Origin: Salipiger bermudensis
GTDB lineage: Bacteria > Pseudomonadota > Alphaproteobacteria > Rhodobacterales > Rhodobacteraceae
Assembly: GCF_020171625.1 (NCBI RefSeq)
Contig: NZ_JAIUZY010000003.1
Coordinates: 434,001 to 498,000, forward strand
Length of the DNA: 64,000 bases
Direction: 5' to 3'
Shown: positions 1,520 through 16,010 of the stretch, one piece after another
Position numbering within the stretch: position 1 is the stretch's first letter
How the letters are laid out: every line of letters starts with the position of its first letter
Notes under the pieces: generated by a model
The model's database searches: none
What the model was told of the DNA's origin: nothing
The model's input: the letters and a program-made list of their open reading frames with translations, nothing else
Translations under genes and position numbers: made by a program

Positions 1520-2914
1520 TCAGGACACGAGGCCGGGAAAGCCGAACCCGCGTTCGAGCACTTCGCCCGCGTCGCAGAGCACGTCCTCGCGCCACGGCGC
1601 GCCGATCAGCTGCACGCCCGAGGGCACGGCATCGACCACGCCCGAGGCCACCGCGATGCCCGGCAGACCCAGCGCCGGGAAGGCGATCTGGGGCAGCTGC
1701 GCCTCCCAGAGCCGCGCCACCGCGTCCCCGCCCTCGAGGTCGGCATCCTGCTTGAACGGCAGGTCCGCCGAGACCGGCATCAGCACCGCCGGGTAATCCT
1801 GCAGGAAGGCGCGCCACTGGCGGGTCAGCGCGGCGCGGCGCTGGAACACCTCGCCGAAGCGCTTGGCGTCGATGGCCTCGGCGCGGTCGGCGTAGTGTTC
1901 AAGCAGCGCGATGGCACCGGGATCGCCCTCCTCATGCGCCATGCGCAGTTTGGTGGCATGGTCGTCCGAGAGCCACAGGTCGATCTGCAGCTCCACCGCC
2001 TCGCGGATCTCGGGCACCTCGCCGGGCTCTTCGACCTGCCAGCCAGCGGCGCGGAAGATCGCCGCGGCGCGGTCGAGGTCCTCGAGGATGCGCGGGTCGG
2101 TGTCGATGCCGCCCGGGCGCTTCACCAGCGCCACGCGGCGACGATAGGCCGGGCCATGCAGCGGCACCGGCGCGCTCCAAATGTCCTCGGGGGCGTAGCC
2201 CGCCATGCCCTCGAGCCCCAGCCGCAGGTCATCGACCCGGCGCGCCAGCGGACCCGAGACCGCCATCAGCTGCGGCCCAATGCCCCGATCGCCGGAGGAG
2301 GGGTTGAACATCGGCACCCGGCCCAGCGACGGGCGCAGCCCCTGCACGCCGCAGGCATAGGCCGGGTAGCGGATCGAGCCCGCGATGTCGGTGCCGTGGC
2401 CGATATGGCCCATGCCGGTCGCCACCGCCGCCCCTGCCCCGCCGGACGAGCCGCCGGCGGTCAGCGTGTCATTGTGCGGGTTCCGGGTGTCGCCGTAGAA
2501 ACCGTTCGTGGTGAACCAGCGATAGGAGAATGCCGGCGTGTTGGTCCGCCCGATCACGATGGCCCCCCGCTCGCGCAGGTGGCGCAGGAATGGGGCGTCC
2601 TCGGTCGCCATCACGTCCTTGAAGATGCGGCAGCTGTTGGTCGAGGCATAGCCCGCCTGATCCGCCAGCACCTTGATGGTCACCGGTACGCCCGCCAGCG
2701 GCCCCACCGTCTCGCCCCTGGCGATGCGTGCATCCAGCGCCTCGGCCTCGGCCATGGCGTCGGCGCCGCAGTCCTGGATGATCGCGTTCACCCGGTTGTT
2801 CACCTTGGCCACGCGGTCGAGCGTGTCGCGGATCACGGAACTGGCAGAGAGCGCGCCGGAGCGGACGCGGGCCGCGAGTTCGCGGGCGGAGAGGTCATTG
2901 GGATCGGTGGTCAT
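1520..2914 (-). CDS. Amidase (amidase-signature family)
   Basis: Hydrolyses a C-N amide bond; the substrate cannot be read from sequence. The protein is 464 aa, normal for the family. The Ser-cisSer-Lys triad is present: Lys81 in VTIK, the serine-rich GGSSGG at 154-159 with cis-Ser156, and nucleophile Ser180 in GTDIAGSIR. The 24-residue spacing between the two serines matches the family. It is the last gene of a minus-strand run that starts with an aldolase and an ABC importer. AGGA precedes the ATG at 2914. It could be mistaken for GatA, but there is no gatB or gatC next to it, so a catabolic amidase is more likely. Confidence 0.9.
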   Translation of the reverse strand: MTTDPNDLSARELAARVRSGALSASSVIRDTLDRVAKVNNRVNAIIQDCGADAMAEAEALDARIARGETVGPLAGVPVTIKVLADQAGYASTNSCRIFKDVMATEDAPFLRHLRERGAIVIGRTNTPAFSYRWFTTNGFYGDTRNPHNDTLTAGGSSGGAGAAVATGMGHIGHGTDIAGSIRYPAYACGVQGLRPSLGRVPMFNPSSGDRGIGPQLMAVSGPLARRVDDLRLGLEGMAGYAPEDIWSAPVPLHGPAYRRRVALVKRPGGIDTDPRILEDLDRAAAIFRAAGWQVEEPGEVPEIREAVELQIDLWLSDDHATKLRMAHEEGDPGAIALLEHYADRAEAIDAKRFGEVFQRRAALTRQWRAFLQDYPAVLMPVSADLPFKQDADLEGGDAVARLWEAQLPQIAFPALGLPGIAVASGVVDAVPSGVQLIGAPWREDVLCDAGEVLERGFGFPGLVS

Positions 2915-2941
2915 GGCGTCCTGCGGCAGAAAAGGAGAGGA

Positions 2942-3841
2942 TCAGGCGGGAACGAGCGCGCGCAACCGGTCGCGGATGCCGCGCACGAGGAGGGTGGCCT
3001 CGGGGATCGAGGCCACATGCGGGGTGACAAGCACCTTGGGATGGGCCCAGAGCGGGCTCTCGGCGGGCAGCGGCTCGGTGTCGAACACATCCATCGACGC
3101 CCCGCAGAGATGGCCCGCATCGAGCACCTCGAGCAGCTGCGCCTCGTCGACCTGCCCGCCGCGCCCCATGTGGATCAGCGCCGCGCCCTCGGGCAGCTTG
3201 CGCAGGAAGGCGGCGTCGATCAGGCCCTTGGTCTGCTCGGTCAGCGGCAGCACGTTCACCAGCATGTCGGTCTCGGCGAGGAAGGCGTCGAGCTGCCCGT
3301 CGGTGAAATGGCGCACCCCCGGCTCGGGCGGCTTGGGCTGCGAGCGCGAATAGCCCGACACCGGATAGCCGAGCGCCATGAGCCCGCGGGCAATCGCCCG
3401 GCCCATGTGGCCGAAGCCCAGCACGCCCACCCGCTTGTGGCTCGGCGACAGGCCGGTGAGCACGCGCTCCCACACGGCGGCGCGCTGCTGGGCGACGTAT
3501 TGCGCCATGTGGCGGTGATGCCAGTGCACGTGAAAGGCGGCGAACCCCGCCATCTGCAACGCCTGATCGGCATCCTCGACCCGGTAGACCGGCACGCCCT
3601 CGGGCAGCGACGGACAGGCGTCGATGGCGTCTGTCCCGGCGCCTGCGGAGAACACCGCGCGCAGGTTGGGATAGGGCGCGAAGGCATCGTCGGCGGGGCG
3701 GAAGGTAAAGACGAAACTCACCTCCTCGGGCCGGGTCACGTCCTCCGGGCGCAGGACGGTGAGCTCCGGCGCCTCGGCGGCGAAATACGGGCTGAAGCGG
3801 TCGAACATCTCGAACGCGGTATTGGTGATGACACCGATCAT
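2942..3841 (-). CDS. D-2-hydroxyacid dehydrogenase (GhrA-like glyoxylate/hydroxypyruvate reductase)
   Basis: NAD(P)-dependent interconversion of a 2-oxoacid and a D-2-hydroxyacid. The protein is 299 aa. A Rossmann motif (VLGFGHMGRAIARG) lies near the middle, followed by the family's HMGRGGQVDE segment and a C-terminal PHVAS motif carrying the catalytic histidine. The short N-terminal half resembles GhrA rather than the longer SerA or GhrB types. It lies two bases from the ABC ATPase gene and 27 from the amidase gene, so it is cotranscribed with the transporter. In this cluster it probably reduces or oxidises an oxo- or hydroxyacid formed by the aldolase or aminotransferase step; that role is inferred. 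Confidence 0.88.
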   Translation of the reverse strand: MIGVITNTAFEMFDRFSPYFAAEAPELTVLRPEDVTRPEEVSFVFTFRPADDAFAPYPNLRAVFSAGAGTDAIDACPSLPEGVPVYRVEDADQALQMAGFAAFHVHWHHRHMAQYVAQQRAAVWERVLTGLSPSHKRVGVLGFGHMGRAIARGLMALGYPVSGYSRSQPKPPEPGVRHFTDGQLDAFLAETDMLVNVLPLTEQTKGLIDAAFLRKLPEGAALIHMGRGGQVDEAQLLEVLDAGHLCGASMDVFDTEPLPAESPLWAHPKVLVTPHVASIPEATLLVRGIRDRLRALVPA

Positions 3842-3843
3842 GC

Positions 3844-5457
3844 TCAGGCGGCTCCCTGCTGATCCCAGTCGGCGCCGGGCACGGCGGCGAGCAGCTTGCG
3901 GGTGTAGTCCTGCTGCGGGTTCAGGAAGATGTCGTGCACCGTGCCGATCTCGACCAGCTTGCCCTTCTGCATCACCGCGATGCGGTCGCAGAGCTGCGCG
4001 GCGACCCGCAGGTCGTGGGTGATGAACAGGATCGACAGCTCGAGCTTCTCGCGCAGCTCGCGCAGCAGGTCGAGCACCTGCGCCTGGATCGACACGTCAA
4101 GCGCCGAGACCGCCTCGTCGGCGATGATCAGCTCCGGGTCCATGGCGAGCGCGCGGGCGATGCCGATGCGCTGGCGCTGGCCGCCGGAGAACTCGTGCGG
4201 GAAGCGGCTGGCGGCATCCGCCCCCAGCCCCACGATCTCGAGCAGCTCGCGGGCGCGGGCCTCGGCCTCCTTCCGGGGAATGCCGCGGGTGATCGGGCCG
4301 TCGGTGATCGCCCCCATGATGCGCTGGCGCGGATTGAGCGAGGCATAGGGATCCTGAAACACCATCTGCACCTTGTGGCGCTGCTTGCGCAGCTCCTCGT
4401 CGGACAGGGCTGCAAGATCGGTGCCGCCGACCATCACCTGCCCGCCATCGGGGGTGACGAGCCGCACCGCGGTGCGCCCGAGCGTCGACTTTCCCGAGCC
4501 GCTTTCGCCCACGAGCCCGAGCACCTCGCCGCGCGCCACGGTGAGCGAGACGTTGTCGACCGCGCGCACCTCGCGGACCGGTTTGAACAGGCCGCCACCG
4601 GTGCGGTAGATCTTGCGCAGCCCCTTGATCTCGAGCGCCGGCGTCTCCGAAAGCTGCCGTGCCGCCGGCAGCTTGCCGGTCGGGATCGCCTCGAGCAGGC
4701 GCTTGGTATAGTCGTGCTGGGGGTTCTCCAGCACCTCTGCGGCCGAGCCGCGCTCGACCACCTTGCCCATGCGCATGACGATCACCTGATCGGCGATCTC
4801 GGCCACCACGCCGAAATCGTGGGTGATGAACATCACCGCCATGCCGCGCTTTTCGCGCAGATCGAGGATCAGCTTGAGGATCTGCGCCTGCGTCGTCACG
4901 TCGAGCGCAGTTGTCGGCTCGTCGGCGACCAGCAGCTTCGGCTCGAGCGCCAGCGCCATCGCGATCATCGCCCGCTGCCGCTGCCCGCCCGAGAGCTGGA
5001 ACGGATAGGCGCGGATGATCTTCTCGGGATCGGGAAGCTGCACCTCGCGGATCAGCGCCAGCGCCTTCTCGCGGCGCTCGGACTGGGTGTAGCGGTCATG
5101 TGCGGCAAACACCTCGACGATCTGGTCACCGATGCGCATCAGCGGGTTCAGCGCCGTCATCGGTTCCTGGAAGATCATCGCGATGCTGGCGCCGCGCAGC
5201 GCCTGCTTCTCGCTCTCGGGCAGGCGCAGCACGTCGCGCGCCTCGAACATGGCGCGGCCCGCCTTCACGGTCACGCCCGGCGGCAGCAGCCCCATCAGCG
5301 CGTTGGCGGTCATCGACTTGCCGGAGCCGGATTCCCCGACCACGCAGAGGATCTCGCCCTTCTCGATGGCCATGCTCACATCCTCGACCGCGAAGGGGCG
5401 GTCGGCGCCCTCCGGCAGGCCGATGGTGAGGTGTTCGATGGACAGTGTGTTGCTCAT
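3844..5457 (-). CDS. ABC transporter ATPase with two nucleotide-binding domains (DppD-DppF fusion type)
   Basis: Powers import through the two permeases encoded just upstream. The 537-aa protein contains two complete ABC modules. Module 1 has Walker A GESGSGKS at 41-48, an LSGGQRQR signature and Walker B LLVADEP. Module 2 has Walker A near 316-323, an FSGGQRQR signature and LIIADEA. Oligopeptide and dipeptide systems usually carry these as two proteins; the fused form is common in this transporter family in alphaproteobacteria. The start at 5457 (MSNTLSIEH) overlaps the permease stop as ATGA. A longer open frame reaches 5850, but its extra N-terminus is a shadow of the permease gene. Confidence 0.95.
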   Translation of the reverse strand: MSNTLSIEHLTIGLPEGADRPFAVEDVSMAIEKGEILCVVGESGSGKSMTANALMGLLPPGVTVKAGRAMFEARDVLRLPESEKQALRGASIAMIFQEPMTALNPLMRIGDQIVEVFAAHDRYTQSERREKALALIREVQLPDPEKIIRAYPFQLSGGQRQRAMIAMALALEPKLLVADEPTTALDVTTQAQILKLILDLREKRGMAVMFITHDFGVVAEIADQVIVMRMGKVVERGSAAEVLENPQHDYTKRLLEAIPTGKLPAARQLSETPALEIKGLRKIYRTGGGLFKPVREVRAVDNVSLTVARGEVLGLVGESGSGKSTLGRTAVRLVTPDGGQVMVGGTDLAALSDEELRKQRHKVQMVFQDPYASLNPRQRIMGAITDGPITRGIPRKEAEARARELLEIVGLGADAASRFPHEFSGGQRQRIGIARALAMDPELIIADEAVSALDVSIQAQVLDLLRELREKLELSILFITHDLRVAAQLCDRIAVMQKGKLVEIGTVHDIFLNPQQDYTRKLLAAVPGADWDQQGAA

Positions 5458-6287
5458 GCCTTGCCCTTCCGGGAGAGGTGCGGGTTCAGCGCGTCGTTGA
5501 GACCTTCGCCGATGAGGTTCAGCGCCAGCACCGTGATGACGATGGCGATGCCGGGGAAGAAGCTCAGCCACCAGGCCGAGCGGATCACCGTGCGCGCGGC
5601 GCCGATCATGTAGCCCCAGCTCATGGCGTTGGGATCGCCGAGACCGAGAAAGGAGAGCGAGCTCTCCAGCAGGATCGCGGTGGCGACCATCAGCGAGGCC
5701 ATGACGATGATCGGCGAGACCGTGTTGGGCAGCACCTGCCGCACGAGGATGCGTGGCTTCGACAGGCCCGCCAGCGTCGCGGCATCGACGAACTCGCGCT
5801 TGCGCACCGACATCACCTCGGCCCGCACGAGGCGCGCCACCGGCGGCCACGAGACGATGGCGATGGCCAGCGTGATCGAGGCCAGCGTCGGCTCGAAGAT
5901 CGCCACCAGCACGATGGCCAGCGCGAAGTTGGGGATGGTCTGGAAGAACTCGGTGAAGCGCATGGCGCCTTCATCGACATACCCGCCATAGAACCCCGCG
6001 AGCGCGCCCAGAGGTACCCCGATGAGCAGCGCCACCAGCGTCGAGACCAGCCCGACCAGCAGCGAAACCCGCGCGCCGTAAGCCAGCTGCGCGGCCACGT
6101 CGCGGCCCAGCGTGTCGGTGCCGAGCGGCAGGCTCTCCATGGCAAAGGGCGCAAGGAATGGGCGCTGTACCATCTGCCAGGGCGTGTTGGCAAAGATCAG
6201 CGGCGCGAAGATGGCGATGAGGATGACGGCGATCAGCAGGACGACCCCGACCATGGCACCGATATTGGTTCTGAAACGTTTCCACAT
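5454..6287 (-). CDS. ABC transporter permease (DppC-type)
   Basis: Inner-membrane half of the importer channel. The 277-aa protein has an N-terminal transmembrane helix, a periplasmic loop and then the five-helix binding-protein-dependent permease domain. The conserved cytoplasmic EAA-type loop lies around the ASLMVA-LESSLSFLGLG region near the C-terminus. The LGTDTLGRD segment in the periplasmic loop is characteristic of DppC/OppC proteins. It starts three bases after the DppB-type gene stop and overlaps the ATPase start by four bases, so the three genes are translationally coupled. Confidence 0.94.
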   Translation of the reverse strand: MWKRFRTNIGAMVGVVLLIAVILIAIFAPLIFANTPWQMVQRPFLAPFAMESLPLGTDTLGRDVAAQLAYGARVSLLVGLVSTLVALLIGVPLGALAGFYGGYVDEGAMRFTEFFQTIPNFALAIVLVAIFEPTLASITLAIAIVSWPPVARLVRAEVMSVRKREFVDAATLAGLSKPRILVRQVLPNTVSPIIVMASLMVATAILLESSLSFLGLGDPNAMSWGYMIGAARTVIRSAWWLSFFPGIAIVITVLALNLIGEGLNDALNPHLSRKGKA

Positions 6288-6290
6288 GGC

Positions 6291-7268
6291 TCAGGCCCTC
6301 GCTCCGATCCGGGGATCGACGATCCGGTAGACGATGTCGGTCACGATGTTGAACAGGATGACCATGGCGGCGGACACGAGGAACACGCCGAGGATGGTGT
6401 TGTAGTCGCGCGCGGCGAGGCTCTCGAACATCAGCCGACCGATGCCGGGCCATGCGAAGACGGTCTCGGTCAGCACCGCGCCCCCGACGAGCTGCCCCGC
6501 CTGCAGGCCGGCCAGCGTGACCACCGGCAGGATCGCGTTGCGCAGGATGTGGCGGCGGCGGATCACCGGGCCCGACAGGCCCTTGGCCTTGGCGGTCTTG
6601 ACGAAATCCGCGGTCGAGACCTCGAGCATCGAGGCCCGCGTCATGCGCATGTAGACCGCCATGAAGAACAGCCCCAGCGTCAGCGCCGGCAGGATCAGGT
6701 GCTTGAGGATGTCGAGCGCGCGGGCAAGGCCCGAGAAGTCGGAGCCCACGGTCTCGTAGCCGAAGCCGGGCAGCCAGCCGAGCCAGACCGAGAACACCAG
6801 CACCGCCATCAGCGCCAGCCAGTAGAGCGGGGTGGCGTAGAACAGCAGCGCCAGCGTGGTCAGGAGCGAATCCGACACCTTGCCGACGCGGGCGGCGGCG
6901 GCGACGCCCAGAGCGATGCCGCAGGTCAGCGAGATCACGAAGGCGGTCAGGGTCAGCAACAGCGTCGCCGGCAGCCGCTCGGCGATCAGGTCGATCACCG
7001 GGGCGCTCTGGCGGAAGGAATAGCCAAGATCCAGCTGCACGATGCCGGCGATGTACTTGCCGAGCTGCACGTAGAGCGGCTGGTCAAGGCCGAAGCGTTC
7101 GCGCAGCTGCGCGATCATCTGCTCGTCGGCCGCGCCCGCCTCGCCTGCCAGCACCACCGCCGGGTCACCCGGCGCCGCGTGCAGCAGACAGAAGTTCAGG
7201 ACAGCGATGGCGAGCAGGGTCAGTGCCGCCTTCGCGAGCCGCGAGAGGATTGCGATGAGAATGGTCAT
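6291..7268 (-). CDS. ABC transporter permease (DppB-type)
   Basis: Second membrane subunit of the same importer. The 325-aa protein starts with a hydrophobic helix, then a periplasmic loop carrying LRERFGLDQPL, a DppB/OppB family hallmark. Further helices follow, and the EAA loop is near residues 220-245 (TAKAKGLSGPVIRRRHILRNA). It follows the binding-protein gene after a 103-base gap with a strong hairpin, a usual arrangement where the binding protein is made in excess over the membrane subunits. Confidence 0.94.
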   Translation of the reverse strand: MTILIAILSRLAKAALTLLAIAVLNFCLLHAAPGDPAVVLAGEAGAADEQMIAQLRERFGLDQPLYVQLGKYIAGIVQLDLGYSFRQSAPVIDLIAERLPATLLLTLTAFVISLTCGIALGVAAAARVGKVSDSLLTTLALLFYATPLYWLALMAVLVFSVWLGWLPGFGYETVGSDFSGLARALDILKHLILPALTLGLFFMAVYMRMTRASMLEVSTADFVKTAKAKGLSGPVIRRRHILRNAILPVVTLAGLQAGQLVGGAVLTETVFAWPGIGRLMFESLAARDYNTILGVFLVSAAMVILFNIVTDIVYRIVDPRIGARA

Positions 7269-7334
7269 GCGTCCTCGGAGGGGAATCTGTTTCCCGAGGC
7301 GCCGCCCACGGGGAGCGGCAGCGCCTCGGGGTCA

Positions 7335-7358
7335 GGCCGGACAAGGGACAGTCCGGCC
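7335..7358 (-). promoter_or_regulatory. Intercistronic hairpin between binding-protein and permease genes
   Basis: A perfect 8-bp inverted repeat (GGCCGGAC / GTCCGGCC, 8-base loop) lies just after the binding-protein stop. No T-tract follows, so it more likely protects the upstream mRNA from 3' decay than terminates transcription. Confidence 0.5.
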
Positions 7359-7371
7359 CGAACCGGTTGGG

Positions 7372-8919
7372 TTACTGCTCGATCCAGGCGTTGCGCGGAC
7401 CATCGTTGACACCGATGCCGGTGGTCACGAGGTCCTTGATGTCGCAACGGTAGATGGTCGGGAACTCGAGCTCGAGAAGCCATGCCACGGGCACGTCGTC
7501 GACGATCTCCTTCTGGATCTCGTCATAGGCGGCCTGACGTTCCTCCGGCGAGATCATGGTCGCGGCGTCGAACCACTTCTCGTCCAGCTCGGGGTTGTCG
7601 TAGCCCTCGACGTTGTTCCACGGGCTGCCCTTCTGGATGCGGTCGGCGGTGTAGTTGCGCGACACGCCCAGCGCCGGGTCGCCGTACTGGTAGAGATAGG
7701 TGAAGGCCATGTCATAGTCCCACTGGGACGTCTTCTCGTTCCAGCCCGCGACGTCGGTGCTGTCGATCGACACGTTGATGCCCACCTCGCTCAGGTTCTG
7801 GCGGATGGCTTCGGCCCAGCGCTGCCAGGTCTCGCCATAGGGCAACGGCAGCAGGCGGATCTCTTCGCCGTCATAGCCCATCTCGGCCAGCAGCTCCTCG
7901 GCCTTTTCGGGGTTGTGATCGTAGATGGTCACGTCGTCCGAATAGAAGTTGGTCTTCGAAGAGACCGGGCCGGTGGCGACGTTGCCGAAGCCGTTCCACA
8001 CCACGTCGCGCTGGAACTCACGGTCCATCGCATACATCACCGCCTGACGGAAGCGCACGTCGCTGGTCGGACCTTCGCGGTTGTTGAGCCACATCCACGC
8101 GTGCGGCGCGAAGAATTCCCAGCCCGAGCCGGTGGAGCAGACATTGTCCATCTCGGTCAGGCGCGGCACGTCCCAGTTCTCGACCGAGCCACCCGGCAGA
8201 ACGTCCACTTCGCCGGTCTCGAAGGCCACGGCGCGGGCGGCGGCATCCGGGATCACGCGGTAATAGACCTCGTCGAGATAGGGCAGACCGTCGACATAGT
8301 AGTCCTCGTTCTTCACGAGGTGGATGTAGCTGCCCTTCTCCCACGCCTCGAACTTGAACGGGCCGGTGCCGATCGGCGTGGCGTTCATCTCGTTGTTGGC
8401 GAAATCGGTGCCTTCATAGATGTGCTTTGGCACGATCGGCATCGTGCCGGTCTCGAAGACGCTGATGAACGGGCCGAAGGGCTCCTTCAGCTGGAACACC
8501 ACGGTGGTGTCGTCCGGCGCGGTGATGCTCTCCACGTATTCCAGCGAGGCGCGCAGACGGGCATGGGTCTCGCGCAGGAAGACATCGGCAGAGAACACCA
8601 CGTCCTCGGCGGTGAAATCCTCGCCGTCGTGCCACTTCACACCTTCGTTGAGCTTGAAGGTGTAGGTCAGGCCGTCCTCCGAGATCTCCCAGCTTTTCGC
8701 CAGAAGCGGCTGCGGCTTCAGGTCGGTGCCGTAGCGCAGTAGGCCCTCGTAGATGTCGCCCGCGACAAGCTGCGTCGGGCCGTTCTGCACAAGGCCCAGC
8801 ATCAGCGAGGGCGGTTCGGGCTGCACCACGATGTCGAGCCGGCCACCGGCCTCCTGCGCGGCGAGCGGCGCCGCGAGCGCGGCGGCGATCAGGAAGGTCG
8901 TCGCTTTGAGATGTTTCAT
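7372..8919 (-). CDS. Periplasmic substrate-binding protein (ABC family 5, peptide/amine type)
   Basis: Captures the transported solute in the periplasm. The 515-aa protein has a clear Sec signal peptide (MKHLKATTFLIAAALAAPLAAQ, cleavage near residue 21). It then has the family 5 fold, shown by the LAKSWEISEDGLTYTFKLNE and DVVFSADV segments near the N-terminus. The family binds oligopeptides, but members also bind opines, nickel, polyols and amines, so the ligand is open. It follows the class II aldolase gene after 79 bases containing a GC hairpin, and precedes the permeases after a second hairpin. Confidence 0.94.
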   Translation of the reverse strand: MKHLKATTFLIAAALAAPLAAQEAGGRLDIVVQPEPPSLMLGLVQNGPTQLVAGDIYEGLLRYGTDLKPQPLLAKSWEISEDGLTYTFKLNEGVKWHDGEDFTAEDVVFSADVFLRETHARLRASLEYVESITAPDDTTVVFQLKEPFGPFISVFETGTMPIVPKHIYEGTDFANNEMNATPIGTGPFKFEAWEKGSYIHLVKNEDYYVDGLPYLDEVYYRVIPDAAARAVAFETGEVDVLPGGSVENWDVPRLTEMDNVCSTGSGWEFFAPHAWMWLNNREGPTSDVRFRQAVMYAMDREFQRDVVWNGFGNVATGPVSSKTNFYSDDVTIYDHNPEKAEELLAEMGYDGEEIRLLPLPYGETWQRWAEAIRQNLSEVGINVSIDSTDVAGWNEKTSQWDYDMAFTYLYQYGDPALGVSRNYTADRIQKGSPWNNVEGYDNPELDEKWFDAATMISPEERQAAYDEIQKEIVDDVPVAWLLELEFPTIYRCDIKDLVTTGIGVNDGPRNAWIEQ

Positions 8920-8951
8920 GTTTTCCCTGTCAGGTTCTGGTTTCGGGGGTG

Positions 8952-8972
8952 GGCCCGGTTCTGTGCCGGGCC
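8952..8972 (-). promoter_or_regulatory. Hairpin between aldolase and binding-protein genes
   Basis: A 7-bp inverted repeat (GGCCCGG / CCGGGCC, 7-base loop) in the 79-base gap. No T-tract is present. It may be an mRNA-stability or processing element that sets aldolase and binding-protein levels separately. Confidence 0.4.
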
Positions 8973-8998
8973 GCCTTGGTTATCTCTCGGGCCGCCGC

Positions 8999-9787
8999 TC
9001 AGCCCTTGTAGCCGGGAGCGGCGGTTTCCAGCATCCGCAGGAAGGCCTCCCATTCGGGATCCCTGCCACCGGCGCCTTCCATCTTGTCATACATTTTCTG
9101 GTATTGGCTCGCCGTGTGCTCGGCGACATCGTCGGGCAGCACGATCGGCGTCAGGCCCATGCCCAGAGCCGCGATCTGCGCCTTGCACGACCGCTCGAGG
9201 TTCAGCGCCAGCTTGACCGCCTCGGCGACCGAGCGGCCCAGCAGCAGCGTGCCGTGATTGCGCAGCAGCATGACCTGCTTCTCGCCAAGATCGGCCACGA
9301 TGCGCTCGCGCTCCTCGAGGTTCAGCGCGATGCCCTCGTAATCGTGGAAGGCGATGCGGTTGAAGAACTGCGCCGACCACTGGTTCAGCGGCAGCACCCC
9401 CTCCTTGATCGACGAAACCGCCACACCGGCGACGGTGTGGGTGTGCAGCACGCACACGGCGTCGTGCCGCGCCATGTGCACGGCGGAGTGGATGGTGAAG
9501 CCCGCCGCGTTGACCCCCGCGCCGTAGGGATCGTCGATCACGGCCCCCGTCTCGTCCACGGTGACGAGATTGGCCGCCGTCACCTCGTCGAAGCGCAGGC
9601 CAAAGGGGTTCAGCAGAAAGCGCTTATCGCCGCCCGGCCCGTCCGGCAGGCGCGCGGAGATGTGGGTGTAGATGCCGTCATCCATGCCGAAATGCGCAAT
9701 CAGCCGGTAGGCGGCAGCCAGATCGCGGCGCAGCTGGGTGACGGGGTCGGCGGTAGCTCCATCGGGCATCAAAGTCGTCCTTTTCAT
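8999..9787 (-). CDS. Class II aldolase/adducin family protein
   Basis: Zinc-dependent retro-aldol cleavage, epimerisation or decarboxylation of small hydroxy-compounds; the family also includes non-enzymatic members. The 262-aa protein shows the family's zinc-ligand pattern: YTHISARLP early, then a histidine-rich stretch HSAVHMARHD followed by LHTHTVAG, and a later RNHGTLLLG. It is the first gene of the minus-strand catabolic run and faces the GntR regulator gene across 89 bases holding a palindromic operator. I kept the ATG at 9787; the methionine six codons later is an alternative start. The reaction is not determined by sequence. Confidence 0.88.
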   Translation of the reverse strand: MKRTTLMPDGATADPVTQLRRDLAAAYRLIAHFGMDDGIYTHISARLPDGPGGDKRFLLNPFGLRFDEVTAANLVTVDETGAVIDDPYGAGVNAAGFTIHSAVHMARHDAVCVLHTHTVAGVAVSSIKEGVLPLNQWSAQFFNRIAFHDYEGIALNLEERERIVADLGEKQVMLLRNHGTLLLGRSVAEAVKLALNLERSCKAQIAALGMGLTPIVLPDDVAEHTASQYQKMYDKMEGAGGRDPEWEAFLRMLETAAPGYKG

Positions 9788-9832
9788 CGCTTATCGTAAA
9801 CAGACGCCGAGAAAGCATGTTTGGTCAAGGAA

Positions 9833-9844
9833 ATTGTCGACAAT
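9833..9844. promoter_or_regulatory. Putative GntR operator in the divergent promoter region
   Basis: The sequence ATTGTCGACAAT is a perfect 12-bp palindrome centred between the aldolase start and the regulator start. It matches the general TTGTnnACAA shape bound by FCD-type GntR regulators. Its position suits control of both arms of the cluster by the adjacent GntR protein, including autoregulation. Confidence 0.65.
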
Positions 9845-9876
9845 CGCCAAACCTACAATTAGCGTGATCGCAACTT

Positions 9877-10596
9877 GTGCATTCCGGTGTCGACTTCATG
9901 GACCCAAAACAGGACAGTGACGGCTTTCAGCCCCTCGACCGCGAGGGGCTCGTCCAGCGTGTCGCGCGCCTGCTCAGCAAGGCGATCGTGACGGGCCAGC
10001 TCTCGCAGGGCGAACGACTCTCCGAATCGGTGGTGGCCCGCCAGCTCGGCGTGAGCCGCGCCCCCGTGCGCGAGGCGGCGCGCCTGCTCGAGAACTCGGG
10101 GCTGGTGACCTACCTGCCCAATCGCGGCTTCTTCGTTCGCTCGATCAGCTCCCGCGAACTGGCCGATCTCTACGAGTTCCGGCTAGTGATCGAGACCGCG
10201 GCGGTGCGCCGCCTGATCCGCGACGGGCTGGGGGAGAGCGAGACCCGCCTCGTTCAGCAGATCGAAGAGATGCGCCGCGTCGCCGGCCCCGGCTTCGACA
10301 TGCTGACACAGGTCGAGGCCGACATGGAGTTCCACCGGCTGATCTGCGCCGGCTCGGGCAATCCGAAATACCTCGCCACCTTCGACCAGATCGCGATGGC
10401 GTCGGAGCTGACGATCATGATGATCGGCCGGCTCTACGACGACGCACAGAGGCTGGCCGAGACCCACCAACCCATCCTCGACGCGCTGCTGCGCCACGAT
10501 GAGCCAGAGGCCGTCGAAGCCCTGCGCTATCATATCGAGGTCGCCCGCGACCTCGTGGTCGAGCAGTTCCGCAACATGGAAGAGAAGCCAGACTGA
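9877..10596 (+). CDS. GntR family transcriptional regulator, FCD subfamily
   Basis: Local ligand-responsive regulator, 239 aa. An N-terminal winged helix-turn-helix (LSESVVARQLGVSRAPVREA near residues 48-68) is followed by an all-helical FCD domain. The FCD domain carries the typical metal-binding histidines (EFHRLI, HQPIL and a late YHIEVARD). Family members usually repress until an organic acid ligand binds. The start is uncertain: GTG at 9877 gives 239 aa and ATG at 9898 gives MDPKQDSDGF; neither has a good ribosome binding site. Its stop overlaps the next start by one base (TGATG), so it heads the plus-strand operon. Confidence 0.93.
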   Translation: MHSGVDFMDPKQDSDGFQPLDREGLVQRVARLLSKAIVTGQLSQGERLSESVVARQLGVSRAPVREAARLLENSGLVTYLPNRGFFVRSISSRELADLYEFRLVIETAAVRRLIRDGLGESETRLVQQIEEMRRVAGPGFDMLTQVEADMEFHRLICAGSGNPKYLATFDQIAMASELTIMMIGRLYDDAQRLAETHQPILDALLRHDEPEAVEALRYHIEVARDLVVEQFRNMEEKPD

Positions 10597-11624
10597 TGAA
10601 GTGTTTCTATGCCCCCGAGACCGACCTCCACGATCCGGTGTTTCGCCTGACGCATGGCAAGATCCTGCGCAACGCCGAGCAGGCCGAGCGCGCCAAGCTG
10701 CTGAAAGCGGGGCTCGATCAGCTTGGCCTCGACACCATCGAACCGGCACAGGCCTCGCGCGATGCGCTCGCGGCGGTGCACACGGAGGATTTCCTCACCT
10801 TCCTCGAGACCGCATGGCAGGAGTGGCAGGCGCTGCCCAACGCCGGCCCCGAGGTGGTGCCGAATGTATTTCCGCAGCGCAGCTTCGCCACCTATCCCGC
10901 CAGCATCGTCGGCCGCGCCGGCTGGCACATGGGCGACACCTCGGCGCCGATCGGTGAGCACACCTGGACCGCCTCGCGCCGCGCCGCCGACTGCGCCGTG
11001 GCCGCCGCCGACGCGGTGCTTGCTGGAGATCGCGCCGCCTATGCGCTGTGCCGTCCCGCCGGGCACCACAGCTCGGCCGACATGGCCGCCGGGCATTGCA
11101 TGATGAACAACTCCGCCGTCGCTGCCGCGCGGCTTCGCAGTAAATACGACAAGGTCGCGACGCTGGATATCGACGTGCATCACGGCAACGGCACGCAGGC
11201 GATCTTCTACGAGCGCGACGACGTGATGACGATCTCGATCCACGCCGACCCCGAGACCTACTACCCGTTCTTCGTCGGCTATGCCCACGAGACCGGCACC
11301 GGCGCGGGCGAAGGCTTCAACACCAATTACCCCCTGCCCCGCAGCACCACCAACGAGGTCTGGCTCAAGACCATCGCCGAGGCACTGGAGAGGATCGCCG
11401 CCTACCAGCCGGGCGCCCTGATGCTGAGCCTCGGGCTCGACGCGCACGAGAATGACCCGCTGCTCGGCATGCAGATCAGCTGGGACGGCTTCCGCCGCGC
11501 CGGCGAGATGATCGCCGCCGCCGGCTATCCCACGGTGATCGTGCAGGAAGGCGGCTACCTCTCCGACGACCTCACCACCTCGCTGGTGTCGTTCATGCAA
11601 GGCTTCACAGGAGACGCCAAATGA
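10596..11624 (+). CDS. Histone-deacetylase-fold amidohydrolase, acetylpolyamine amidohydrolase-like
   Basis: Zinc-dependent removal of an acetyl group from an acetylated amine, most likely an acetylpolyamine. The protein is 342 aa. Family motifs are clear: RPAGHHSS (catalytic His pair 157-158) and DIDVHHGNG (zinc ligands Asp193 and His195), with a further Asp in SLGLDAHENDP. The loop FFVGYAHETGTGAGEGF is typical of bacterial acetylpolyamine amidohydrolases rather than eukaryotic-type deacetylases. It overlaps the regulator stop by one base and the M20 gene start by four (ATGA). Deacetylase chemistry is well supported; the exact amine is inferred. Confidence 0.9.
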   Translation: MKCFYAPETDLHDPVFRLTHGKILRNAEQAERAKLLKAGLDQLGLDTIEPAQASRDALAAVHTEDFLTFLETAWQEWQALPNAGPEVVPNVFPQRSFATYPASIVGRAGWHMGDTSAPIGEHTWTASRRAADCAVAAADAVLAGDRAAYALCRPAGHHSSADMAAGHCMMNNSAVAAARLRSKYDKVATLDIDVHHGNGTQAIFYERDDVMTISIHADPETYYPFFVGYAHETGTGAGEGFNTNYPLPRSTTNEVWLKTIAEALERIAAYQPGALMLSLGLDAHENDPLLGMQISWDGFRRAGEMIAAAGYPTVIVQEGGYLSDDLTTSLVSFMQGFTGDAK

Positions 11625-12904
11625 CCCTCTCTGCCGAACTGACCGAACAGATCCTCGCCGCCGTCGAAGAGGGGTTCGAGGACCAGATCGCCTTCACCGA
11701 AGCGCTTGGCCGGTTCCCGTCCCTGCGGGGACAGGAGGCGACCGCGCAGGATTTCCTGCATGACGCGCTGAAGGAGCGCGGCTACGCGATGGACCGCTGG
11801 ACCATCGAAGTTGACGACATCAAGCACCACCCCGGTTTCTCACCGGTCGAGGTCGATTATTCCAACGCCATCAACGTGGTGGGCACGCTGCGCCCGCGCG
11901 AGGAGACCGGGAAGTCGCTGGTCCTGAACGGCCATGTCGACGTTGTCCCCGCGGGGCCGCTCGACATGTGGAGCCACCCGCCCTTCGAGCCGAAGCGCGA
12001 CGGCGACTGGCTCTATGGCCGCGGCATCGCCGACATGAAGGCCGGGATCGCCGCCAACATCTTTGCCGTCGACGCGCTCAAGCGGCTGGGCTACCGCCCC
12101 GCCGCCACGCTCTACCAGCAATCGGTGGTCGAGGAGGAATGCACCGGCAACGGCGCGCTCGCGGCGCTGCTGCGCGGCTACAACGCCGATGCCGCGATCA
12201 TTCCCGAACCCGAGGACGACATGCTGGTGCGGGCCAATGTCGGCGTGCTGTGGTTCCGCGTCCGGGTGCAGGGCGCCCCGGTGCATGTACGCGAGGCCGG
12301 CTCGGGCGCCAACGCCATCGAAGCGGCCTACGACCTGATCAAGGGTCTGCGCGAACTGGAAGAGGCATGGAACGCCCGGAAGGGCGAGCATCGCTATTTC
12401 GAGGAGCTCGAGCACCCGATCAACTTCAACGTCGGCAAGATCTCCGGCGGCGACTGGGCGTCGACCGTGGCGGCCTGGTGCGAGTTCGACTGCCGCATCG
12501 CGCTCTACCCCGGCATCAAGGCCGCAGACGCCGCGCGCGAGATCGAGGACCACCTGCGCCGGGTCTCCGAGGGCATCCCGTTCCTCGCCAACAACCCGCC
12601 CGAGGTGATCTTCAACGGCTTCTTCGCGGAGGGCTACGTGCTCGAGGAAGGCACAGAGGCCGAGGACACGCTCGCCCGCGCCCACATGTCGAGCTACACC
12701 AAGCCGCTCGAGAGCTTCGTGACGCCGGGCTACCTTGATGGGCGGGTCTTCGTGATCTACGGCGAGACCCCCTGCCTCGTCTACGGCCCCTATTCCGAAG
12801 CCATTCACGGCTTTGACGAGCGGGTCAAACTGTCTTCGGTAAAGCGCGTGACCGGCACGATCGCGCTGTTCATCGCGGACTGGTGCGGGCTGGAAAAGAT
12901 TTGA
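11621..12904 (+). CDS. M20 family metallo-deacylase (ArgE/DapE type)
   Basis: Hydrolyses an N-acyl or N-acetyl amide using a two-metal centre. The 427-aa protein has the M20 metal-ligand series: NGHVDVV, then RGIADMKAG, then VVEEECTGN with the catalytic Glu next to a ligand Glu. A central dimerisation domain follows. AAGGEG-like context is absent, but the ATG at 11621 overlaps the upstream stop, which indicates translational coupling. It is the second C-N hydrolase of the plus-strand operon and the third in the cluster, suggesting stepwise removal of acyl groups from the imported compound. ArgE, DapE and N-carbamoyl-hydrolase roles cannot be separated here. Confidence 0.9.
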   Translation: MTLSAELTEQILAAVEEGFEDQIAFTEALGRFPSLRGQEATAQDFLHDALKERGYAMDRWTIEVDDIKHHPGFSPVEVDYSNAINVVGTLRPREETGKSLVLNGHVDVVPAGPLDMWSHPPFEPKRDGDWLYGRGIADMKAGIAANIFAVDALKRLGYRPAATLYQQSVVEEECTGNGALAALLRGYNADAAIIPEPEDDMLVRANVGVLWFRVRVQGAPVHVREAGSGANAIEAAYDLIKGLRELEEAWNARKGEHRYFEELEHPINFNVGKISGGDWASTVAAWCEFDCRIALYPGIKAADAAREIEDHLRRVSEGIPFLANNPPEVIFNGFFAEGYVLEEGTEAEDTLARAHMSSYTKPLESFVTPGYLDGRVFVIYGETPCLVYGPYSEAIHGFDERVKLSSVKRVTGTIALFIADWCGLEKI

Positions 12905-12910
12905 TCAAAT
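12899..12910. promoter_or_regulatory. Perfect palindrome upstream of the aminotransferase gene
   Basis: ATTTGATCAAAT is a perfect 12-bp inverted repeat that spans the M20 stop codon and lies about 130 bases upstream of the aminotransferase start. It differs from the ATTGTCGACAAT operator, so a different regulator may control the aminotransferase. No binding protein is known from the sequence. Confidence 0.4.
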
Positions 12911-13001
12911 TCTCCCCGTGACCTTTGACCCAAAGTCATCTTAACTGAGCGCCGACGGGGACCTGAGTCTCCCGCGGCCTTCTCCCCCAACCGAACCCTC
13001 A

Positions 13002-13016
13002 GGCCCCGCGGGGGCC
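13002..13016 (+). promoter_or_regulatory. Leader hairpin before the aminotransferase gene
   Basis: GGCCCC-GCG-GGGGCC forms a 6-bp stem about 20 bases upstream of the start codon and just before the GGAG ribosome binding site. No T-tract follows, so it is a leader structure rather than a terminator. Confidence 0.35.
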
Positions 13017-13037
13017 ACTGCCAACACGGAGATCGAC

Positions 13038-14420
13038 ATGAACCAGCGCCCGAACTCGCTTCACGCCGCCGACATCGCTTACACGATGCACCCCTACACC
13101 AACATGCGCCTGCACGAGGAAAAGGGACCGATGATCATGAGCCATGGCGACGGCGCCAAGGTCTATGACACCGAGGGCAAGGAATATTACGAGGCGCTGG
13201 CGGGCCTCTGGTCGGTCGCCGTGGGCTTCTCCGAGACCCGCCTGGCCGACGTGGCCTACGAGCAGCTCAAGAAGCTGCCCTACTACCACACCTTCGCGCA
13301 CAAGTCGCACGAGCCGTCGATCCGCCTCGCCGAGAAGCTCGTCGAGATGACCCCGGAAGGGCTCAACAAGGTGTTCTTCACCAACTCCGGCTCGGAAGCC
13401 AACGACACCGTCGTCAAGATGGTCTGGTTCCTCAACAACGGCCTCGGGCGCCCGGAGAAGAAGAAGTTCCTGTCGCGCAACAAGGCCTATCACGGCATCA
13501 CCATCGCGTCGGGCTCGCTCACCGGGCTGCCGGCGAACCAGAAGGATTTCGACCTTCCGGCGATCCCGGTCACCCACCTGACCACGCCGCATTACTGGAA
13601 ATTCGCCGAAGAGGGCGAAACCGAAGAGCAGTTCACCGCCCGCCTGCTGAAAGAGCTCGAGGACACGATCATTGCCGAGGGCCCCGAGACCATCGGCGCC
13701 TTCATCGGCGAGCCGGTGATGGGCGCCGGCGGCGTCATGGTGCCGCCCGAGGGCTACTGGCCGGGCGTTGCCGAGATCTGCGCCAAGTACGACATCCTGC
13801 TGGTGGCCGACGAGGTCATCAACGGCTTCGGCCGCACCGGCAAGCCCTTCGGCTGCGAGCGCTTCGGCTTCACCCCCGATATCCTCGTGACCTCGAAGCA
13901 GCTGACCTCGTCCTATATGCCGCTCGCCGCCATCGTGGTGAACGACAAGGTCTATGACGCCATCGCCGACAACACCGCGAAGCTCGGCACGTTCGGCCAC
14001 GGCTTCACCGGCTCTGGCCACCCGGTCGCCTGCGCGGTGGGCCTCGAGAACCTGAAGATCATCGAAGAGAAGGATCTGATGGGCAATGCCGAGCGCCTCG
14101 AGCCGATGTTCCAAGAGGGTCTGCGCAAGTTCGCCGATCACCCGCTGGTCGGCGAAGTGCGCGGCGTGGGCCTGATCGCGGGCGTCGAGCTGGCCAAGAA
14201 CCGCGACACCCGCGAGGCCTTCGAACCTGCGGGCTCGATGGCGGCCAAGGTCGTGGCGCTCTGCGCCGAGGAAGGCCTGATCGTGCGCAATGTCTATGAG
14301 ACCGTGGCGTTCTGCCCGCCGCTGATCGTCACCGAGGCCGACCTGACCGAGATCCTCGCCCGCTTCGGCCGGGCGCTCGACCGGGCGCTCGAGTGGGCGA
14401 AATCCGAAGGGATGGTCTGA
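13038..14420 (+). CDS. Class III pyridoxal-phosphate aminotransferase (omega-transaminase type)
   Basis: Moves an amino group, usually a terminal one, from an amine or omega-amino acid to pyruvate or another oxoacid. The protein is 460 aa. The PLP lysine is Lys287 in TSKQLTSSYMPL; VADEVINGFGRTG carries the PLP-ring Asp, and GSEAND lies in the phosphate-binding region. Overall it resembles amine:pyruvate and putrescine-type enzymes more than ornithine or acetylornithine aminotransferases. GGAG precedes the ATG. It follows the M20 gene after 133 bases, so it may have its own promoter. With the deacetylases upstream, oxidation of a freed terminal amine is a reasonable inferred role. Confidence 0.92.
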   Translation: MNQRPNSLHAADIAYTMHPYTNMRLHEEKGPMIMSHGDGAKVYDTEGKEYYEALAGLWSVAVGFSETRLADVAYEQLKKLPYYHTFAHKSHEPSIRLAEKLVEMTPEGLNKVFFTNSGSEANDTVVKMVWFLNNGLGRPEKKKFLSRNKAYHGITIASGSLTGLPANQKDFDLPAIPVTHLTTPHYWKFAEEGETEEQFTARLLKELEDTIIAEGPETIGAFIGEPVMGAGGVMVPPEGYWPGVAEICAKYDILLVADEVINGFGRTGKPFGCERFGFTPDILVTSKQLTSSYMPLAAIVVNDKVYDAIADNTAKLGTFGHGFTGSGHPVACAVGLENLKIIEEKDLMGNAERLEPMFQEGLRKFADHPLVGEVRGVGLIAGVELAKNRDTREAFEPAGSMAAKVVALCAEEGLIVRNVYETVAFCPPLIVTEADLTEILARFGRALDRALEWAKSEGMV

Positions 14421-14559: not shown

Positions 14560-15693
14560 TCAGAGGGTGGCGATGAGGGCGAGGCCCCCGTCGCCTTGGC
14601 GGAAGCGGATGGCGTGGGCCGGGGCGCCGGTGGCGAGGCTGCCCACGCCCTGCCCCAGTTTCGCGAGGCGCGCCGGGATCGACGTCGCCATGGCGAGGGC
14701 GCGCTCGAGCGGCAGGCCAAGCTCTGAGACCAGCAGGTTGATGGCGCGGGTGAGGTCGAGATCGGCCCCGGCCAGCGTGCCGTCCGGCAGCACCAACCGC
14801 CCCTCCGCGCGGGTGATCTCGCGCCCGTTGAGGCGGAAGCTGCGGGCCTCGGTCCCGGCCACGGCCATCGCATCGGTGACGAGGAAGAGCCCCTCCGGTC
14901 TGGCCGCGAGGGCGATGCGCATGGCGGCCGGGTGCACGTGCACGCCATCGGCGATCAGCCCGGCGGACAGCCCCTCGCAGGCCAGCGCCGCGCCCACCAC
15001 GCCCGGTTCGCGCTTGTCGAGACCGCGCATGGCGTTGAACAGATGGGTGACGCAGCGGGCCCCGGCGCGGGCATAGGCAAGGCAGGTGTCGTAATCCGCA
15101 TCGGTATGGCCGAGGGAGACCAGCGCGCCGGCGCCGGCCAGTGTCGCTACCTGCTCGGGTGTGGTGTTTTCCGGCGCGATGGTGACCTTGAGCACCGGCA
15201 GGCGGCGCGCCGCGTCGCAAAGCATCGTCAGGTCGGCGTCGCTCATCGGGCGGATCAGCGCGCCGTCATGGGCGCCCTTGCGGGAGAGCGCCAGATGCGG
15301 CCCCTCGAGATGCAGCCCGCCAATGCCCGCCACGCCTTCGGCGATGGCCTGCGTCACTGCCTCGATGGCCGCGCGGCTGCGCGCGGGCGTGTCGGTGATC
15401 AGGGTGGGCAGGATCGTGGTGCTGCCGAGCCGGCGGTGCGCCTGCGCCACGGTCGCCAGATCCGCCGGCGTGGGGCCGTCATTGACCATCACCCCGCCAC
15501 CGCCGTTGACCTGCAGATCGACATAGCCCGGCGCGAGCAGATCGCCGTCGAGATCGATGACCTCGCCTGATGCGGCAACCGCCGCCTCGGGGGCGAGCAC
15601 GGTCACGCGACCGGCTTTGATGCAAAGCGCGTGGCCGTGCAGCAGGCGCTGCCCGTCGAAGATCGGGCCGCCGCGATAGGTGGTCTCTGTCAT
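14560..15693 (-). CDS. nagA: N-acetylglucosamine-6-phosphate deacetylase
   Basis: Deacetylates GlcNAc-6-phosphate to glucosamine-6-phosphate in amino sugar use and cell-wall recycling. The 377-aa amidohydrolase-fold protein shows LDGDLLAPGYVDLQVNGGGG near the N-terminus, the metal-binding Glu in HLEGPHL, the histidines in SLGHTDADYD and THLFNAM, and the catalytic Asp in VTDAMAVAG. I chose the ATG at 15693 (MTETTYRGG) because AAGG lies nine bases upstream; ATG 15699 is too close to it, and a GTG at 15711 is further out. No nagB, nagK or sugar transporter lies next to it, so it stands alone. It is convergent with the aminotransferase gene. Confidence 0.93.
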   Translation of the reverse strand: MTETTYRGGPIFDGQRLLHGHALCIKAGRVTVLAPEAAVAASGEVIDLDGDLLAPGYVDLQVNGGGGVMVNDGPTPADLATVAQAHRRLGSTTILPTLITDTPARSRAAIEAVTQAIAEGVAGIGGLHLEGPHLALSRKGAHDGALIRPMSDADLTMLCDAARRLPVLKVTIAPENTTPEQVATLAGAGALVSLGHTDADYDTCLAYARAGARCVTHLFNAMRGLDKREPGVVGAALACEGLSAGLIADGVHVHPAAMRIALAARPEGLFLVTDAMAVAGTEARSFRLNGREITRAEGRLVLPDGTLAGADLDLTRAINLLVSELGLPLERALAMATSIPARLAKLGQGVGSLATGAPAHAIRFRQGDGGLALIATL

Positions 15694-16010
15694 GCGCATC
15701 CGCCTTGGCACAGGGTTGGCGCGACCCTAGGAAACCCGCGCGGCGGCTGCAATGGGGCAAGGACAGGCACCAGGCCCGGCGGTGGGCGCAGGCTGGGCGA
15801 TCTGCCGCGCGATGTGTGCCCGGGCGTTGGCAGCGCGTCCTGACCCGCTCCGGCAGGCCCGTCCGGGGTGGGGCCGATTTCGGGGCCCAATGGTGGGCCT
15901 CTTCGCCGCGTCATTCGCGCTTCTGGGCGAGACGGAGGGGTCCTCGCGGGCGGCGCGCCTGCCAGTCGCATCCGCCCGCCGAGGACAGCCTCGGATCGGG
16001 CCTGCCCGCC
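15694..16010. other. Intergenic region upstream of nagA
   Basis: About 320 bases with no convincing gene. It holds the nagA promoter region and, at 15979-15994, a 6-bp hairpin (CCGAGG / CCTCGG) downstream of the membrane-protein gene at 16011 that could help end that transcript. Open frames here are Arg/Pro-rich shadows. Confidence 0.55.

Follow-up and report, generated by a model that had tools for sequence, protein, structure and literature searches.

The 64,000-nucleotide stretch of the Salipiger bermudensis genome analyzed here (the window; contig NZ_JAIUZY010000003.1, positions 434,001 to 498,000) contains an eleven-gene block at 1520-14420 that, judged by comparison across genomes, is one co-conserved and jointly regulated unit. 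From the center, the minus arm is transcribed in the order class II aldolase-fold enzyme (ALD), substrate-binding protein (SBP), two permeases (PerB and PerC), importer ATPase (ABC), D-2-hydroxyacid dehydrogenase (DHA), and amidase (AMD). The plus arm runs from a GntR regulator through a zinc deacylase of the histone deacetylase family (HDAC) and an M20 deacylase to a class III aminotransferase (AT). With somewhat more confidence than doubt, we read the block as a GntR regulon through which an N-acylated small molecule would serve as a source of carbon/nitrogen and yield a D-2-hydroxy acid. Its enzymes come from ordinary, known families, and the assembled pathway is undescribed as far as literature searches show: no paper with this gene set turned up among open-licence PMC papers, in line with the first-pass annotation, which knew of no standard pathway with this combination.

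The co-conservation that had been proposed for uptake, deacylation, and degradation was borne out by synteny and by a shared promoter. The block recurs gene for gene in Salipiger (86-99% protein identity to the window across the block and the nagA-like flank in S. bermudensis HTCC2601, locus L034) and in varied forms in Thalassospira, other Rhodobacterales, Azospirillaceae, Nitratireductor, Comamonadaceae, and Salinicola. Scanning named genomes with the HDAC only gave 58 loci; the SBP was also present in 27 of them, all eleven genes in six, and all except M20 in ten more. The lineages include Salipiger, Actibacterium, Rhodalgimonas, Thalassospira (Rhodospirillales), and Salinicola (Gammaproteobacteria); further loci in plasmid records come from Pseudosulfitobacter, Nitratireductor, Paracoccus, Skermanella, Azospirillum, and a Comamonadaceae bacterium. 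With the SBP as query, 33/385 genomes matched at class level (E 1e-100), and 22/398 at phylum level and 20/394 at family level (both E 1e-150), our own genome counted each time. A close copy of ALD was found in seven other genomes of 289, adjoining an SBP in six of the seven (three of these six from one genus). The genomes behind these synteny counts are related to one another, and the counts are not independent events.

We labeled 67 neighborhoods by tblastn because our own ORF script missed low-GC genes (e.g., L098/L166). These are fetched stretches rather than all matches: 32 of the 46 listed class-level matches (leaving out our own, six of G407 and G309, G347, G450, G304:C159, G528, G235, G360, and G183) and 35 from the phylum and family searches (the family-level set leaving out our own, G088, G052, G955, and two places on G092:C28). 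Among the 34 with an SBP at least 59% identical to ours, we counted HDAC in 25, a 2-hydroxyacid dehydrogenase of any kind in 21, ALD in 18, M20-like genes in 13, AT in 13, and AMD in 4. The 33 more distant SBP loci, to which the PanE-type modules L110 and L113 belong, had HDAC in 8, AMD in 7, a dehydrogenase in 5, M20-like genes in 5, AT in 3, and ALD in 2. Across these counts, the importer and the deacetylase are the most constant part, and AMD, M20, and AT come and go among lineages. The eight genes for which co-occurrence had been proposed do not belong to the core to the same degree.

Both arms are tied by the 89-bp promoter region between them (9788-9876), which contains the conserved palindrome ATTGTCGACAAT (9833-9844, no strand assigned). 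Its core, TGTCGACA, was present in all 51 divergent ALD/GntR promoters, window included, where only loci with the two genes divergent within 900 bp were counted and LysR-regulator loci were not among them. After removal of identical promoters, the core was found in 44/44, and the next commonest 8-mers, which overlap it, in 27/44. The exact 12-mer occurred once in the 4.74 Mb genome, with five further places at one mismatch; no second exact site, as a sign of a wider regulon, was found there. PMC9765439 gives the same sequence, with gel-shift support, as the binding motif of Pseudomonas aeruginosa PrpR, a GntR-FCD repressor. Given the promoter conservation, the single genomic site, and the identical 12-mer bound by PrpR, the local GntR very probably has this palindrome as its operator; the identity of the motifs carries no information on propionate. 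The first-pass annotation had tied the arms together through overlapping stops and starts. Overlaps do occur between GntR and HDAC (one shared base, TGATG) and, as ATGA, between HDAC and M20 and between permease and ATPase. The ATPase and DHA genes lie 2 bases apart, and four junctions are spaced: ALD-SBP (79 bp), SBP-permease (103 bp), DHA-AMD (27 bp), and M20-AT (133 bp). The arms diverge, and it is the shared promoter that joins them.

The gene position directly after the importer ATPase provides the best clue to the chemistry. In the 34 close-SBP loci, this slot held DHA in 15, a GlcD-type FAD-linked dehydrogenase in 5 (L144, L145, L146, L148, L149), M20 in 4, HDAC in 2, and nothing labeled in 7; in the remaining one, the contig ends before the ATPase. 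A PanE/ApbA-family protein fills it in Skermanella, two Azospirillum, and two further loci very close to these. No similarity among the 2-Hacid_dh, PanE/ApbA, and GlcD-type slot proteins was detectable by BLAST, and their Pfam domains differ too. Known members of the three families act on D-2-hydroxy acids or the corresponding 2-oxo acids. In a tree of 63 SBPs, the GlcD label needs two changes within the half where DHA prevails: four GlcD rows are sister to the DHA-bearing Salinicola rows, and L145 falls elsewhere. In the other half, the five rows with PanE in the slot form one clade. This tree was made by a quick method, with 15/60 branches open, from 52 of the 67 loci, the window, and ten plasmid or named loci. 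The repeated filling of the same slot by unrelated families suggests one required reaction, so that the slot was probably recruited repeatedly from three unrelated D-2-hydroxy-acid families and the pathway probably oxidizes a D-2-hydroxy acid. GlcD-type FAD-linked enzymes work in the oxidizing direction in known members, which suggests this direction here.

For the deacylase, the window HDAC has the zinc-deacetylase residues HH, D/H, D, and Y at positions 158, 159, 195, 197, 284, and 323 (Mycoplana ramosa numbering), and shares 38-39% identity with ApaH of M. ramosa and AphA of P. aeruginosa, with the metal site kept. The pocket differs from that of M. ramosa ApaH, with Val for Glu106, Ser for Glu117, His for Tyr168, and PLL for PIS (290-292). 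Among 75 importer-linked HDACs (window included, and some genomes counted twice, as among the 51 SBPs below, e.g., L039/L160, L044/L163, L088/L102), Tyr168 was found in none and Ile at 291 in two, whereas all four reference acetylpolyamine amidohydrolases have both Tyr168 and PIS. Position 106 is a poorer guide: it was acidic in 2/75, but also in only 2/4 references (Glu, Asp, His, Met). PMC11532494 links polyamine selectivity to Glu106, in M. ramosa ApaH, and to the PIS/PEG position, and reports broader activity for PsApaH with His106; enzymes without Glu106 are active according to the same source and PMC4784309. The Tyr168/PIS mark is not proven to be defining, because PDB 3men, named an acetylpolyamine aminohydrolase and outside the four references, has Phe168 and PQS and is closer to the module enzymes; it is also the best PDB relative of the window HDAC. 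Paralogues in our own genome include one with Phe at 168 and PLA (L001) and another 29% identical to the window HDAC (L003). Because the importer-linked HDACs were not one clade in a FastTree tree (13 changes, with a long-branch warning and one row left out), the argument rests on residue patterns and not on monophyly. Together with gene context, these residues set back a plain acetylpolyamine, which seems an unlikely substrate. The acyl-removing set itself varies by lineage: HDAC alone, HDAC with M20, with a carbamoylase-like M20 or with the amidase, or two HDACs. Separately, a plasmid of Phyllobacterium zundukense (L101:5192-9026) carries an HDAC relative with a class III aminotransferase, a 3-keto-5-aminohexanoate cleavage protein, and a GNAT acetyltransferase.

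The importer is of family 5 and not of the PotD type. We take the DppA anchors for peptide termini to be Asp408 and Arg355. Anchors of this type were not found in the alignment of 51 module SBPs (at least 58% identical, HDAC nearby), where Gln stands at the Asp408 position in 51/51 and Leu at the Arg355 position in 50/51. Dipeptide uptake was rejected, as the Asp/Arg anchors are absent from the SBP.

Our preferred reading, a GntR regulon for an N-acylated compound, can be put as a route. The family 5 importer would take up the compound, and the HDAC-family zinc enzyme, with M20 and/or the amidase, would strip acyl groups to give a D-2-hydroxy acid together with an amine; the helper may instead be a second HDAC or a carbamoylase-like M20 in other lineages. 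Amine and hydroxy acid are possibly one molecule, an omega-amino-D-2-hydroxy acid. Oxidation of the hydroxy acid by the dehydrogenase would give a 2-oxo acid for the class II aldolase-fold enzyme to cleave or decarboxylate, and the class III aminotransferase would turn the amine into an aldehyde. GntR would hold both arms repressed via ATTGTCGACAAT until a pathway metabolite frees it. Comparison of sequences supports the unit, the conserved palindrome, the recurrently filled slot, and a deacylase and SBP unlike the reference polyamine and dipeptide types; the order of steps, the direction of oxidation, the aldolase reaction, the binding of GntR to the palindrome as a repressor, and the substrate class are what we infer. 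As a working guess, the substrate is an N-acylated omega-amino-D-2-hydroxy acid or its amide conjugate. The broader proposal of a widespread undescribed proteobacterial pathway for such compounds, with HDAC-fold catabolic deacylases and an oxidation step filled independently by three unrelated families, is tentative, and we would sooner doubt it than assume it. As for the first-pass guess at the substrate, the acylated amine joined to a hydroxyacid kept its place, helped by the slot filled by three unrelated families, and the plain acetylpolyamine lost ground to His168/PLL and the family 5, not PotD-type, importer.

Several observations weigh against the reading as a GntR-controlled route through a D-2-hydroxy acid. 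Nine of the 34 close-SBP loci had no HDAC in reach: five near relatives with a bare importer (L108, L150-L153), L106 on a 4.9-kb contig, L144, L146, and L156. Conversely, L105/L057, L166/L098, and L168 have importer and HDAC but neither ALD nor DHA. The unit is modular, since L097 combines ALD and a GhrA-like dehydrogenase with another type of hydrolase and of transporter. No GntR was labeled at the loci of the Skermanella and Azospirillum relatives, Paracoccus L096, L145, L167, and L168, most of which have a LysR gene nearby; in Skermanella, Azospirillum, and a few others, it occupies the place expected for GntR. At the slot, the GlcD-type proteins score 248-271 bits, well below the GlcD equivalog cut-off of 567.9, and their Pfam domains include enzymes for other substrates. 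The best PDB match of the PanE-like protein, 3ghy (233 bits), is far above the next, which suggests a paralogue group. Lastly, 23 non-module SBP relatives (36-56% identical, no HDAC; the remaining SBPs were not used) have Gln in 18/23 and Leu in 12/23 at the two anchor positions; as anchor loss is common among SBPs of the wider family, it is not special to the module.

Some of these points would suit a block that is not one pathway, in which an importer came under one regulator along with several independent hydrolases and salvage enzymes acting on mixed peptides or amides. Amidase, M20, aminotransferase, and aldolase come and go, HDAC and AT occur without the other genes in L050, L051, L053, and L091 (Alloyangia, Salipiger mangrovisoli), and in L097 ALD and DHA stand with another hydrolase. 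We nevertheless consider such an assembly unlikely, given the single conserved palindrome, a gene order kept across alpha-, beta-, and gammaproteobacteria, the replacement of the same step by analogues, and an SBP without DppA-type peptide anchors. Acetylpolyamine catabolism, in which acetylated di- or polyamines would be imported, deacetylated by the HDAC, and oxidized by AT with the other genes as accessories, appears rather unlikely. The best PDB relatives of the HDAC are named acetylpolyamine amidohydrolases, the best one, 3men, also lacks Tyr168 and PIS, and the activity of Glu106-less enzymes and the mixed residues at 106 in the references fit it as well; AT is an omega-type enzyme whose PDB relatives include a polyamine:pyruvate transaminase. 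However, the absence of Tyr168 from the importer-linked HDACs and the near absence of Ile at PIS set them apart from the references, and this explanation leaves the recurrent dehydrogenase slot, the aldolase, and M20 unexplained.

A further rival is the catabolism of pantoyl amides (pantothenate, pantetheine, and relatives). The hydrolases would release D-pantoate and beta-alanine, DHA or PanE would give ketopantoate, the aldolase would split it into 2-oxoisovalerate and formaldehyde, and AT would use beta-alanine. Pantoate is a D-2-hydroxy acid, the carbamoylase-like and omega-aminotransferase genes would suit beta-alanine, and PanE-family proteins replace DHA in Skermanella and Azospirillum, the Skermanella one passing the cut-offs of NCBIfam subfamilies named 2-dehydropantoate 2-reductase. 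Yet the closeness of the PanE-like protein to 3ghy points to a paralogue group, and because other lineages carry genes left unexplained (a pyrroline/piperideine-2-carboxylate reductase, a HisC-like aminotransferase, and kinase/PLP pairs), we keep pantoyl amides as a rival only, and a quite improbable one.

At the locus itself, all genes named by the first-pass annotation were present on the implied strands with strong family matches in Pfam and NCBIfam and, by profile and motif searches, with catalytic motifs intact. On the minus strand, AMD (1520-2914, 464 aa) is an amidase-signature hydrolase of the PRK07487 subfamily (Pfam amidase E 1.3e-77, and NCBIfam), with GGSSGG and Lys motifs in the window protein and in 19/19 relatives tested. 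DHA (2942-3841, 299 aa) is a GhrA-like NAD(P)-dependent D-2-hydroxyacid dehydrogenase (Pfam 2-Hacid_dh_C 4.9e-48). It falls below the equivalog cut-off of its best NCBIfam model, GhrA (PRK15469; 177 bits vs. 403), and carries the PF02826 motifs GFGHMG, DTEPLP, and TPHVA, whose corresponding patterns occur in 41, 43, and 44 of 45 relatives. The fused DppD/DppF-type ATPase (ABC; 3844-5457, 537 aa; ABC_tran 3.3e-61, two stretches) has its start placed at ATG 5457, a small correction to the earlier gene model. It is preceded by the inner membrane permeases PerC (OppC type, 5454-6287) and PerB (DppB type, 6291-7268), with Pfam E-values of 6.6e-31 and 5.1e-42 for the two, the 515-aa family 5 periplasmic SBP (7372-8919; SBP_bac_5 2.2e-93), and the 262-aa class II aldolase/adducin-fold metal enzyme ALD (8999-9787; PRK07044; Aldolase_II 2.7e-47). 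ALD has its metal motif as HTH at 115 and NHG at 177, and relatives have NHG in 60/60 and [HS]TH in 53/60.

On the plus strand, the GntR/FCD regulator (9877-10596, 239 aa, GTG start; Pfam GntR and FCD) is followed by the acetylpolyamine-amidohydrolase-like HDAC (10596-11624, 342 aa; Hist_deacetyl 2.7e-73), which had no NCBIfam match in the family scan. M20 (11621-12904, 427 aa) is an ArgE/DapE-family deacylase (PRK06837; Peptidase_M20 1.6e-23), and AT (13038-14420, 460 aa) is a class III omega-aminotransferase by the NCBIfam scan (PRK06105). AMD, ALD, M20, and AT passed the curated NCBIfam cut-offs of their respective models. The block is flanked by a DEAD-box-helicase-like frame (1-1218, minus strand), named from sequence, and by a nagA-like gene (14560-15711, minus strand).

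Related loci carry further enzymes. The L145 operon continues with HDAC, a carbamoylase-like M20, and a pyrroline/piperideine-2-carboxylate reductase (bifunctional model, 368 bits vs. a cut-off of 322); a cyclic imine for such a reductase would form if the 2-oxo acid bore a free omega-amine. The best family for a TPP enzyme in L169 is the acetolactate synthase large subunit (680 bits, cut-off 363), with a much weaker match to benzoylformate decarboxylase. A HisC-like aminotransferase occurs in L146, L148, and L149; the two that were scanned, from L146 and L149, fell below the family cut-offs. All three kinds of enzyme could use a 2-oxo acid, and none proves such use. An APH-type kinase with a class III PLP protein, matching the two halves of PRK06148, was found in Salinicola (L060, L061, L071), Comamonadaceae L100, L147, and L169, by profile scans for the L100 pair and the L071 and L147 kinases and by similarity for the others; in L063 (Salinicola), the second gene of the pair is cut by the contig end. 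We take this pair to be of the hydroxylysine/ethanolamine phospho-lyase type, and its relatives handle amino alcohols. No substrate clue came from the genes around class II aldolases more distant from ALD, which include carnitine genes, amidohydrolases, and a TauD-like enzyme, among others. On Palleronia and Alloyangia plasmids (L134:9013-9747, L135:8983-9717), class II aldolase paralogues with about 50% identity to ALD directly follow carnitine 3-dehydrogenase. An MlrC/M81-family metallopeptidase gene lies directly 3' of M20, in the same direction, at L103:15511-16986.

A sister system was seen on a plasmid of Paracoccaceae strain La 6 (L097:8227-18379), with ALD, a GhrA-like dehydrogenase, a related GntR, and a palindrome that differs at one base, beside an annotated N-substituted formamide deformylase, an 8-oxoguanine deaminase, and another family 5 transporter. 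Regarding importer copies, five related genomes (L108, L150-L153) have the importer without labeled catabolic genes nearby, although more of the module is present in L143 and L147, which belong to the same genus. L158 (G789:C2:1-19900) has two or three tandem SBP copies at about 8550-11714, beside a DHA-type gene and a TPP-enzyme relative, and its genome has a fuller module at a separate place (L154).

These findings would tie HDAC-like deacylases, easily filed as acetylpolyamine amidohydrolases, to a catabolic regulon of their own whose likely substrate is another one, and they caution against assigning polyamine functions from homology. That unrelated enzymes replace one another at one step gives a hint of the pathway chemistry that is testable with purified proteins; the SBP, the operator, and the three interchangeable dehydrogenases are practical handles for finding the compound.

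Compared with known systems, the importer has the same architecture and fused ATPase type as the family 5 ABC importers Dpp, Opp, and Nik. The regulator shares its family and motif with PrpR (PA0797), the repressor of the 2-methylcitrate cycle (PMC9765439); PrpR controls other genes, whereas here the exact site is confined to this cluster in the genome. Unlike the systems with the kinase and class III PLP pair, the window block has an omega-aminotransferase instead. Finally, the window HDAC shares fold, catalytic residues, and approximate length with the acetylpolyamine amidohydrolases (M. ramosa ApaH, Pseudomonas sp. ApaH, and P. aeruginosa AphA; cluster 4 in PMC11532494) but, unlike those compared, it sits with a family 5 importer, a 2-hydroxyacid dehydrogenase, and an aldolase.

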